Assembly: GCF_009649785.1 (NCBI RefSeq)
Contig: NZ_WJOK01000005.1
Coordinates: 62,001-126,000 of the forward strand
Length of the DNA stretch: 64,000 nucleotides
Source of the DNA: Agrobacterium tumefaciens
GTDB lineage: Bacteria; Pseudomonadota; Alphaproteobacteria; Rhizobiales; Rhizobiaceae
Direction of reading: 5' to 3'
Positions within the stretch are counted from its first letter, which is position 1; every line of letters starts with the position of its first letter. The translations under genes were made by a program, and so were the position numbers. The notes beneath the pieces were generated by a model, which ran no database searches, was not told the origin of the DNA, and saw only the letters and a list, made by a program, of their open reading frames with translations. Shown here piece after piece: positions 40,620 through 43,543 of the stretch.

Positions 40620-41273
40620 TCAGGCTCCGGTCAGATCATAAGGGCGGGCGAGCACGATGGCTTTTCCGCTTTTCAGCGAGAAATGCACAGGGCCGCCATT
40701 CGCGACATTGGAAATAGTGCGGGAAGAGCCGAAAGCAAGCGGGAAATCCTTGAGAGGATAACGCACATTGCCGATATCGAGCCCCACAAGGTCGGTAAAC
40801 CCGGCAACGGAAAACAGCGCACCGGGTGGCAGATCAAGGTCGAACGACCCTGCCAGCAGCGGGCGGGCCTCCTCTTCGCCGGAGGTCAGCGTAACGTTGA
40901 GACCACGCTCAGTAAGCGCCACCGCGTAAAGAAGGTGCTGAAGTGCGTGGTCGCTTCTCGCTCCACCAAGCGCACCGGCAAGCACCAGAGAACGCGCGCC
41001 GCGGGCAAGTGCCTCCGACACCGCAATTTCGCCATCGGTCACAGCCTTTGCAGCGGGATAGGGCTGTCGCACCACATCGGGCCAGGCGTCCAGCAGGTCC
41101 TTGTCGGTGGAATCGAAATCCCCCACCCAGAGCTCGGGTGTGAGCCCGAGCGGTGCGGCATGGCGCATGCCGCCATCGGCCGCAATCACACGGCTACCCT
41201 CAACCGCCGCTTTGAGGCGGTCGGTAACGGTGACATCGCCGCCAAGCAGAATGGTGAAGCGTTCTCTATCCAT
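40620..41273 (-). CDS. thiN: Thiamine pyrophosphokinase
   Basis: A 217-residue enzyme transferring pyrophosphate from ATP to thiamine to make the active cofactor. The catalytic-domain signature is ADGGMRHAAPLGLTPELWVGD, continuing FDSTD. A second motif, LVLAGALGGARSDHALQHLL, contains the conserved GGxxDH-type site. It is useful together with ThiBPQ import about 3 kb downstream, and it heads the pair with the ABC-F gene. The gene name is by function; the equivalent is also called TPK. Confidence 0.93.
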   Translation of the reverse strand: MDRERFTILLGGDVTVTDRLKAAVEGSRVIAADGGMRHAAPLGLTPELWVGDFDSTDKDLLDAWPDVVRQPYPAAKAVTDGEIAVSEALARGARSLVLAGALGGARSDHALQHLLYAVALTERGLNVTLTSGEEEARPLLAGSFDLDLPPGALFSVAGFTDLVGLDIGNVRYPLKDFPLAFGSSRTISNVANGGPVHFSLKSGKAIVLARPYDLTGA

Positions 41274-41336: not shown

Positions 41337-41365
41337 TTGATTTTCGTCGGCTTCGGGATTATGAA
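41337..41365 (+). promoter_or_regulatory. Probable metA promoter
   Basis: TTGATT (41337-41342) and TATGAA (41360-41365) are 17 bases apart. The predicted start near 41371 falls just before the SAM-II riboswitch, which supports the call. Confidence 0.55.
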
Positions 41366-41373
41366 ACGCCTCA

Positions 41374-41426
41374 GTGGTGATTTGCCGACCGGCTTGCAGC
41401 CACTTTAAAGAAGTCGCTAAAGGGTC
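41374..41426 (+). promoter_or_regulatory. SAM-II riboswitch upstream of metA
   Basis: GTGGT (41374-41378) pairs with GCCAC (41399-41403) as P1. In the loop, GACC (41387-41390) can pair with GGTC (41423-41426) to form the pseudoknot that defines SAM-II. The intervening TTTAAAGAAGTCGCTAAAGG matches the conserved A-rich stretch of the family. SAM-II was first described upstream of metA in alphaproteobacteria, including Agrobacterium. SAM binding should lower metA expression. Confidence 0.93.
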
Positions 41427-41449
41427 GAGGAAAAGGGTAATTTCCTGGG

Positions 41450-41480
41450 ACCGGCTGCGATTTCGCTGCCGGTTTTTTTG
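41450..41480 (+). terminator. Rho-independent terminator between SAM-II and metA
   Basis: ACCGGC (41450-41455) pairs with GCCGGT (41468-41473). An inner GCG/CGC stem and loop ATTT sit inside it, and seven T follow. It sits in the metA leader, not after a gene, so it is a candidate switchable attenuator. Confidence 0.8.
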
Positions 41481-41522: not shown

Positions 41523-42449
41523 ATGCCGATCAAGATTCCCGATACGCTTCCCGCCTTCGACACCCTCGTTCATGAGGGCGTGCGGGTCATGACAGAAACG
41601 GCGGCCATCCGGCAGGATATCCGCCCGCTCCAGATCGGGCTTCTCAATCTCATGCCGAACAAGATCAAGACGGAAGTGCAGATGGCGCGCCTCGTCGGCG
41701 CATCGCCGCTGCAGGTGGAGTTTTCGCTGATCCGCATTGGCGGCCATCGTGCCAAGAATACGCCGGAAGAGCACCTTCTGTCCTTCTATGAGACATGGGA
41801 GGAAGTGCGCCACCGCAAGTTCGACGGTTTCATCATCACAGGCGCGCCCATCGAGATGCTTGATTATGAAGACGTGACCTACTGGAACGAGATGCAAAAG
41901 ATTTTCGACTGGACGCAAACCAACGTCCATTCGACGCTGAACGTCTGCTGGGGCGCGATGGCCGCCATCTATCATTTCCATGGTGTGCCGAAATACGAAC
42001 TGAAGGAAAAGGCTTTCGGTGTCTATCGTCACCGCAATCTCTGCCCCTCGTCGATATATCTCAACGGTTTTTCCGACGACTTTCAGGTTCCGGTCTCACG
42101 CTGGACGGAAGTGCGCCGCGCCGACATCGAAAAACACCCGGAACTCGAAATCCTGATGGAGTCAGAGGAAATGGGCGTATGTCTGGTGCATGAAAAAGAG
42201 GGCAACCGCCTCTATATGTTCAACCACGTCGAATATGATTCAACCTCGCTTTCGGATGAATATTTCCGCGATGTGAACTCGGGCGTCCCAATCAAGCTGC
42301 CGCATGATTATTTTCCGCACAATGATCCGGAGCTTGCCCCGCTCAACCGCTGGCGCAGCCATGCCCATCTGTTTTTCGGCAACTGGATCAACGAGATATA
42401 TCAGACGACGCCTTATGACCTCGAAGCAATCGGCAAACTAGCGGCGTAA
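41523..42449 (+). CDS. metA: Homoserine O-acyltransferase MetA, probably acetyl-specific
   Basis: A 308-residue enzyme that activates homoserine for methionine synthesis. The catalytic Cys142 is in [15 protein letters not shown]. The residue that sets acyl-CoA choice in this family is at 111; here it is Glu ([15 protein letters not shown]), as in acetyl-CoA-using members, while succinyl-CoA users have Gly. I chose the ATG at 41523 ([10 protein letters not shown]), which gives these exact residue numbers. It is controlled by the SAM-II riboswitch upstream. An aldose epimerase gene follows, with no evident metabolic link. Confidence 0.95.
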
Positions 42450-42523
42450 ATTGCGGGATTGCGAATTGCCGGAAAATGACGCAACGTCCGCCGGCAATTC
42501 AAAGATATCGGGAGAATGACGCA

Positions 42524-43543
42524 ATGAGCGACGCGGCGGCACGGGAGAATTTTGGTTTCACGGCAACCGGCGAAAAGGTTGAGCGCGTCACCATCTCGAA
42601 GGGCGGGCTGACGGCCAAGGTTATCACCTGGGGCGCCGTCATTCAGGACCTGCGCCTCGATGGGCACCAGCCGCCGCTCGTTCTCGGCTTCGATACATTC
42701 GAGGACTACAAATATTCATCCTATTTCGGCGCCACACCCGGTCGCAATGCCAACCGTATCGGTGACGGAAAATTCTCGATCGACGGGCACGAATACCAGC
42801 TGGAACTGAACGAAAAAGGCGTCAGCCACCTGCATGGCGGCAGCGACGGGATGGGCAAACGTAACTGGATGCTGATGGAACACGGCGAAAGCCATGCGGT
42901 TCTGCAGATCATCGATCCCGACGGCCGCGCCGGTTATCCCGGCAATTGCACGGTGACCGCGACCTATACGATCCGCGACGGCGGCGTGCTTTCGGTGGTC
43001 TATGAAACGGTGACCGACCAACCGACCATCGCCAATATCTGCCAGCATTCCTATTTCAACCTCGACGGTGCTGATACCGCACTTGGACATGAGATCAGCA
43101 TCGCCGCTGACTTTTATCTGCCAACCAACGACAAACAGATCCCGACAGGCGAAATCCGCTCCGTCGAAGGCACCGTCTTCGACCTGCGCCACCCGACGCC
43201 GATGCGGCGAACGGAGGATGGCGAGCAGGTGCTCTACGACCATAATTTCTGCCTTTCGCCCGAGCGTCGCGCCAAGCGCAAGGTTGCCCGCGCCTATTCG
43301 CCCGCCTCCGACATTACCCTTGAGGTTCACACCACCGAACCCGGCGTGCAATTTTATTCAGCCTTCAAGCTGAATGTTCCCGTTCCAGGCCTCGATGGCC
43401 GCCATTATGGCCCCTTTGCCGGTTTCTGTCTGGAAACGCAGATATGGCCGGATGCCGTCAATCATCCCGATTTCCCCTACGCGATCCTGCGTCCCGGCGA
43501 GACCCTGCGTCAGGAAACCGACTATATTTTCAAGAAGGGTTGA
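42524..43543 (+). CDS. Aldose 1-epimerase (galactose mutarotase type)
   Basis: A 339-residue enzyme interconverting alpha and beta anomers of aldoses. Family marks include NRIGDGKFSIDGHEYQL, the general acid His in SHLHGGSDGMGKRNW, QHSYFNLDG with the second His, and a C-terminal GFCLETQIWPDAVNHPDF containing the catalytic Glu. The ATG at 42524 follows GGGAGAATGA. It converges on mtgA with a 15-base gap. Confidence 0.93.
   Translation: MSDAAARENFGFTATGEKVERVTISKGGLTAKVITWGAVIQDLRLDGHQPPLVLGFDTFEDYKYSSYFGATPGRNANRIGDGKFSIDGHEYQLELNEKGVSHLHGGSDGMGKRNWMLMEHGESHAVLQIIDPDGRAGYPGNCTVTATYTIRDGGVLSVVYETVTDQPTIANICQHSYFNLDGADTALGHEISIAADFYLPTNDKQIPTGEIRSVEGTVFDLRHPTPMRRTEDGEQVLYDHNFCLSPERRAKRKVARAYSPASDITLEVHTTEPGVQFYSAFKLNVPVPGLDGRHYGPFAGFCLETQIWPDAVNHPDFPYAILRPGETLRQETDYIFKKG

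Follow-up and report, generated by a model that had tools for sequence, protein, structure and literature searches.

Predicted antiterminator strands in the SAM-II riboswitch leader of metA in Agrobacterium tumefaciens point to control by transcription attenuation

The window is a stretch of 64,000 nucleotides from Agrobacterium tumefaciens, and all positions below are counted on its forward strand. The gene metA, which encodes homoserine O-succinyltransferase, is located on the + strand at 41523-42449 (PF04204, 1.5e-130). Its start codon was taken from an alignment with 80 relatives. These metA loci from named genomes are the best 80 of 588 relatives, and the closest named protein among them is that of Agrobacterium genomosp. 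13, at 98% identity. The divergent neighbour at 40620-41273 on the - strand encodes a thiamin pyrophosphokinase (PF04263, PF04265), and the metA leader lies between both genes. An aldose 1-epimerase gene is found 3' of metA at 42476-43543. A candidate promoter on the + strand at 41337-41365 (TTGATT 41337-41342, a 17-nt spacer and TATGAA 41360-41365) is a weak guess made by eye, and a consensus scan listed none at this site.

The leader contains a SAM-II (SAM_alpha) aptamer at 41364-41440 on the + strand, which matches Rfam RF00521 at 73.7 bits (gathering score 36) and sits 5' of the methionine gene metA. Matches to RF00521 (E <= 0.001) occur in 373 of 394 genomes of the source family. The P1 stem-loop at 41373-41403 (+ strand; 41373-41378 paired with 41398-41403) follows from the Rfam consensus structure on the match and from folds of truncated transcripts. 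The P1 loop holds the 5' strand of P2, GACC at 41387-41390 (+ strand), referred to here as L. The 3' strand of P2, GGUC at 41423-41426 (+ strand), is referred to as S and can be assigned two partners, namely L in the SAM-bound form and 41449-41452 in the antiterminator described below. The SAM-II class was reported in A. tumefaciens metA by Corbino et al. 2005, who proposed a terminator and OFF logic (PMC1273637). According to the text of that paper, the metA RNA binds SAM and not SAH, P2 was established by compensatory mutation, and the RNA that was probed left out the terminator stem (PMC1273637). The element in the window is the same one in these respects, with the same gene, SAM binding, P2, proposed terminator and OFF logic (PMC1273637; RF00521).

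An intrinsic terminator stem-loop is located between the aptamer and the metA start codon, where an attenuator would have it. The stem-loop spans 41449-41474 on the + strand (-17.4 kcal/mol), with a 5' arm (T5) at 41449-41459 and a 3' arm (T3) at 41464-41474, and a U-tract is evident in the sequence at 41473-41479 on the same strand. The hairpin taken as 41448-41480 folds at -17.4 kcal/mol with a z score of -4.83, and none of 200 shuffles was equally stable. A simple terminator scan of the window missed this metA terminator. Linkage of SAM-II to terminators is common, and the mechanism was regarded as not yet established when Barrick and Breaker surveyed the class in 2007 (PMC2258182).

The analysis combines sequence, folds, conservation and co-variation of pairs, all computed. 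Leaders were drawn from the 80 metA loci above, from metA leaders of 39 source-genus genomes plus nine more stretches, and from SAM-II matches at one genome per genus for 80 genera of the source family, besides additional loci. The 285 aptamers, found in 284 of 285 records, represent 258 distinct leaders (146 metA, 102 metZ and 10 other). Automatic placement found a terminator in 224 of the 258; several of the 34 leaders without a placement show one by eye. Two leaders with N were dropped, which leaves an analysed set of 222 (116 metA, 98 metZ and 8 other). Swap tests compare native pairs with partners exchanged between leaders, carry no correction for kinship, and used 55 distinct element sets for metA, 76 for metZ and 136 in all. 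The aptamer strand before S (..AAGUCGCUAAA) is called J.

The preliminary description, which was made from the sequence alone, had joined GACC (41387-41390) and GGTC (41423-41426) in a pseudoknot. This pairing is borne out, since L and S co-vary with z scores of -6.7 in metA and -7.2 in metZ (0/2000 each); the element thus has both P1 and a co-varying P2 pseudoknot, as expected of SAM-II. The terminator arms T5 and T3 likewise co-vary, with z scores of -5.4 in metA and -9.1 in metZ. Two leaders of the source genus, L150 and L151 (G419, G295), have a P2 that was flipped by a double change, with GGTC in the loop and GACC as S.

The same description had drawn attention to ACCGGC in the P1 loop (41388-41393), which recurs in T5 (41450-41455) and is complementary to GCCGGT in T3 (41468-41473). 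The words and their coordinates are correct, but the length of the repeat was understated; the true repeat is the 8-nt word GACCGGCT at 41387-41394, whose first four letters are L, and at 41449-41456. When the terminator 5' side was mononucleotide-shuffled 20,000 times, a shared word of at least 8 nt arose 120 times; such a word was also found for 541 of 63,847 other 24-mers on the + strand of the window, which puts its chance at about 0.6-0.9% per single case. A shared word of at least 7 nt arose in 464 of 5,000 dinucleotide shuffles. The genome background for terminator stems was taken as pattern counts. The terminator-like stem ACCGGC...GCCGGTTTT has 15 occurrences in the organism's own genome with both strands counted; therefore, the stem word is not unique to the metA site. 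The genome also has a second SAM-II leader, L001 (G000:C2:319844-319922, - strand), and the next gene is metZ by pattern. In this metZ leader CCGGTC is common to L and T5 and GACCGG is common to S and T3, so the resemblance recurs in the paralogue in other letters. The repeat of GACCGGCT may be explained by S, since this strand, GGTC, needs complementarity to both copies of GACC.

A stepwise fold that followed transcription produced, unsought, a helix between J and the top of the terminator. J is the aptamer 3' strand GAAGUCGC at 41410-41417 (+ strand), and its predicted partner is GCGAUUUC at 41457-41464, which comprises the upper terminator 5' arm and the loop (the apex). J would form the outer strand of an antiterminator hairpin at 41410-41464 on the + strand (-22.2 kcal/mol, z score -3.87, 0/200 shuffles). 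The second outer helix is formed by S (GGUC) and GACC at the base of the terminator (41449-41452), and the fold also has an inner hairpin at 41428-41446 (+ strand), in which AGGAAA 41428-41433 pairs with UUUCCU 41441-41446. Since J:apex and S:T5 occupy the terminator's own 5' arm, they exclude the terminator. The leader thus has, by computation, an antiterminator that uses aptamer strands and is incompatible with termination, as an attenuator requires.

Folded from 41404 on, the antiterminator has an energy of -23.4 kcal/mol, against -22.0 kcal/mol for the terminator plus the inner hairpin. In the ligand-free fold the J helix is fully formed (P 1.00) at 41464-41470, and S:T5 reaches P 0.54 alongside other registers. 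The terminator reaches P 0.66 at 41474 and 0.87 at 41480. When J and S were blocked as a stand-in for SAM, the terminator had P 1.00 from 41470 onward. Because the terminator wins at full length even in the absence of SAM (P 0.87), the proposed switch would have to be kinetic. The modelled energy balance is as expected for a kinetic switch, which folds of this kind suggest and cannot prove.

A simpler model, in which S:T5 alone is the whole antiterminator, was rejected. S plus the inner hairpin is worth -11.5 kcal/mol, and the bare S:T5 swap gives no co-variation in metA (z score 0.3); therefore, the longer hairpin with J replaces the model based on S:T5 only. In metZ the S:T5 swap has a z score of -5.2.

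Prediction gives both outer helices for 113 of 116 metA leaders, 86 of 98 metZ leaders and all 8 of the others. The two halves of the long hairpin co-vary, with z scores of -11.4 in metA (93 distinct) and -13.2 in metZ (98), and 0/200 each. The stretch from S to T5 was also assembled as chimeras, with left and right halves from different leaders (75 metA and 80 metZ distinct leaders, short linkers excluded, cut at a fixed point and compared with a control stretch). These chimeras are weaker than the native hairpins, with z scores of -10.3 in metA and -11.6 in metZ (0/300 each), and the thinned sets still give -4.5 (11 dissimilar metA linkers) and -5.1 (metZ). Downstream control stretches gave z scores of -1.0, -1.4 and -0.7. 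The hairpin between S and T5 is retained as the sequence shifts, from GAGGAAA..UUUCC in Agrobacterium and Sinorhizobium leaders to GGCCGCGUGCGGACC in many Rhizobium and GAGAAGA..UCUUC in Neorhizobium. Shuffled linkers say little about the switch: the native linker is more stable in 106 of 116 metA and 66 of 98 metZ leaders, and S:T5 pairing is hardly altered (3.59 against 3.34 expected pairs in metA).

The J helix was compared in the same way, with 74 metA, 86 metZ and 8 other distinct sets. J prefers its native apex over the apices of other leaders, with z scores of -7.9 in metA and -8.8 in metZ (0/2000 each), and this signal is absent in the 8 other leaders. With native rather than shuffled apices, the pairing energies are -9.68 vs -5.96 kcal/mol in metA and -7.28 vs -5.31 kcal/mol in metZ. 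A MAFFT alignment held 71 of 72 metA leaders, with L043 excluded for an insertion in the linker. The six J:apex pairs are standard pairs in 93.4% of the cells of this alignment, compared with 22-44% when one side is slid. The covariation score of these pairs was matched by 1 of 500 shuffles; only 2 cells are changed on both sides, and 105 of 500 shuffles reach that count. In the apex, GCG hardly varies (70 or 71 of 71 leaders per column), in contrast to its partner in the terminator (TCGC, TTGC, TCGT). We read this as what a 5' side with two partners would produce.

The metZ leaders show some variation on this scheme. Those with AGUAGC or AGUGGC as J have a weak match to the apex, and S pairs with the whole of T5 instead. 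The two bases preceding the terminator core also track the type of S. Where S runs into CGG, 39 of 41 metZ leaders are without a G adjoining the terminator core. Where S does not run into CGG, GG adjoins the core in 96 of 116 metA leaders and 21 of 57 metZ leaders.

A few leaders have unusual structures. Eight metA leaders of the Rhizobium type (L057, L069, L071, L087, L089, L096, L102 and L106) have lost the terminator 3' arm and kept the aptamer and the GGCCGCGTGCGGACC..AGC part of the hairpin, a point against the attenuation model described below. L270 (G007:C12:67780-68330) carries, 5' of metA, a direct tandem of two SAM-II aptamers and their terminator-like units; one of these units holds N, and an assembly artefact is possible. 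The aptamer of L180 (G071:C1:2907252-2907720) has no terminator or methionine gene recognised in the next 330 nt.

Outside of the source family, a SAM-II match was found in 53 of 115 genomes from other alphaproteobacterial families. From these, 29 loci were fetched, and 25 have a placed terminator. S pairs with the terminator 5' arm (P > 0.5) in 24 of these 25 leaders, and J and the arm show no co-variation in them (z score -0.4). The S switch therefore seems to be common in the class, and the J helix seems to have been added in the source family. J:apex as a general rule for SAM-II leaders beyond the source family is not supported, on the same z score.

Taken together, the folds and the comparison make it likely that the SAM-II riboswitch controls metA by transcription attenuation, with the J/S antiterminator set against the terminator. 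In the absence of SAM, J (41410-41417) and S (41423-41426) would fold with 41457-41464 and 41449-41452. The antiterminator would form while the terminator 3' arm (41464-41474) is still unfinished, and the polymerase could read through into metA. In the presence of SAM, S would pair with L (41387-41390) in the pseudoknot and J would be held in the ligand-bound aptamer. This would leave T5 free, the terminator would form, and transcription would end some 43 nt short of the metA start codon. S would thus have two alternative partners, L and the terminator 5' arm, which would account for the repeat. We infer that SAM sequesters J and S early enough, and that termination in the cell changes with SAM.

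The alternative that survives best, which we consider unlikely, is control of translation. It holds that the terminator is independent of SAM and that SAM hides a Shine-Dalgarno sequence, GAGG, which serves a start codon 74 nt downstream. This is the reading given for metA of S. meliloti, whose metA and metZ SAM-II leaders belong to the same leader family and whose metZ was predicted in the same work to switch a terminator (PMC9373788). According to the text of that paper, the S. meliloti metA terminator was validated and is strong in both media, and a SAM-driven antiterminator was not predictable for its 2022 authors (PMC9373788). Changing GAGG to GATT abolished the reporter, which was explained by a Shine-Dalgarno sequence acting 74 nt away; a reporter with AUG2 only gave no fluorescence, and ribosome association increased in the SAM-pocket mutant (PMC9373788). 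The window likewise carries GAGG at 41427-41430. However, no ATG lies between this GAGG and the terminator, so the window lacks the combination of GAGG and AUG1 that the distant-translation model calls for, and its metA has a purine-rich GAGAG of its own 10-14 nt before the ATG. Of the 146 distinct metA leaders, 55 have GAGG among the first 12 nt that follow the aptamer core, and 65 of 68 scored leaders without GAGG are still predicted to have both helices. The mutation in the SAM pocket also raised mRNA, and the authors could not distinguish effects on the promoter from effects on termination (PMC9373788).

From the genus that holds the S. meliloti-like leader (that of G045), 32 leaders were examined. 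An in-frame AUG1 lies near GAGG in 1 of the 32, and both helices of the hairpin are predicted in 32 of 32. Within this group, L315 and L316 (G257, G435) were compared with L285-L314; L316 carries a different in-frame ATG, at the apex of the terminator. L315 fits the description of S. meliloti, with GAGG, an in-frame AUG1 and 74 nt to AUG2. Although distant translation control is inferred for metA in PMC9373788, the J/S hairpin is predicted in L315 as well, at -18.4 kcal/mol, and only -13.1 kcal/mol remain after the GATT change. In full-length folds the native and GATT forms both end in the terminator (P 1.00); therefore, the effect of GATT could act only during transcription. Since GAGG lies inside the antiterminator hairpin, the 2022 results for S. 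meliloti may partly reflect antitermination. We offer tentatively, as somewhat short of an even chance, that the 'Shine-Dalgarno at 74 nt' is largely an antiterminator, in which case the GAGG mutation would raise termination instead of destroying a ribosome site, and the pocket mutation would have raised mRNA by releasing the antiterminator. The silent AUG2-only reporter and the raised ribosome association count against this rereading (PMC9373788).

The preliminary description had proposed other strands, and its version is more doubtful still. It held that without SAM the loop ACCGGC pairs with GCCGGT in the terminator 3' arm and blocks the terminator, and that SAM locks the loop away. The complementarity is real, and in the unconstrained ensemble L:T3 coexists with S:T5 with P1 broken, at P 0.68 at 41474 and 0.36 at 41480. 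However, L:T3 crosses P1 and requires an open P1 or a pseudoknot. Its probability falls to zero once P1 is imposed, by a folding method that cannot score pseudoknots. With the full 5' part and no constraint, the terminator has P 0.61 at 41480, and with P1 imposed it has 0.92. The word ACCGGC itself is poorly conserved: 22 of 39 source-genus genomes share it, as do 15 of the 116 distinct metA leaders, and by the yardstick that the preliminary description set for itself this speaks against its pairing. The terminator of L150 and L151 still reads GACCGG, although their loop has changed to GGTC. T5 is closer to the loop than T3 and is left unoccupied in that model.

The swap tests also argue against the loop and the 3' arm as partners. 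L and T3 co-vary in metZ (z score -4.7, 0/2000), but in metA they pair no better than permuted sets (z score -0.4, 743/2000). Because L resembles T5, one signal can ride on the other, and one strand was therefore held fixed. With S fixed, L:T3 has no signal in metZ (z score -0.6) or in all leaders (z score -0.4, 817/2000). With L fixed, S:T5 keeps its signal in metZ (z score -3.1, 4/2000) and in all leaders (z score -3.5, 0/2000); metA alone gives a z score of 0.1. The idea of attenuation therefore stands in part: folds and comparison support the pseudoknot and the terminator as alternatives that compete through shared complementary strands, with OFF logic, but the strands proposed for that competition were probably the wrong ones. 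The pairing of L with T3 may add to the antiterminated state, and the comparison does not require it.

It is very improbable that the hairpin between P2 and the terminator merely insulates or protects the RNA, with the conserved GCGA apex being just the upper terminator stem. In favour of this reading, the fold accommodates the inner hairpin together with the terminator, GCG is paired in the terminator too, and S. meliloti has abundant short riboswitch RNAs (PMC9373788). Against it, the J:apex and S:T5 helices use the terminator 5' arm and so exclude the terminator, J prefers its native apex over those of other leaders, and the 5' side of the apex is nearly invariant while its terminator partner is variable.

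The attenuation proposed for metA resembles several known systems. The riboswitch, the terminator and the OFF logic were known before, and only the pairing is new. The consulted text of PMC1273637 gives no antiterminator, and J:apex and S:T5 are added by the present analysis. In the portions of text consulted, a J:apex antiterminator for metA is not described in PMC1273637, PMC9373788, PMC2258182 or PMC4239095, nor, figures and supplements aside, in PMC10907184, PMC5756330, PMC3723493 or PMC6152003. A supplementary figure for S. meliloti metZ may hold something alike for metZ. The SAM-II leader of Gluconobacter oxydans belongs to another family and another gene than the metA studied here; read coverage of its 5' UTR is 20-fold above that of the gene, and this RNA-seq result fits termination (PMC5756330). 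A cited prediction for that leader has terminator and antiterminator conformations, whose strands are not given in the passages concerned (PMC5756330). In SAM-I (S-box) and other OFF riboswitches of the terminator/antiterminator type, an aptamer strand held by the ligand likewise forms an antiterminator otherwise (PMC2258182). The SAM-I aptamer is unrelated, and here switching is assigned to the 3' strand of P2 and the strand preceding it, with a partner that includes the terminator loop.

The SAM-II class was first described in metA of A. tumefaciens, and its mechanism has since been called unproven (PMC2258182). An antiterminator defined at the level of strands, with comparative support across the family, makes the mechanism testable by a few paired mutations. 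It also offers a simpler reading of the surprising published result on a distant Shine-Dalgarno sequence. If that distant Shine-Dalgarno sequence is indeed largely an antiterminator, the SAM-II leaders of metA would be transcription attenuators across the family, and the case for a novel mode of translation initiation would be deprived of one of its main supports.
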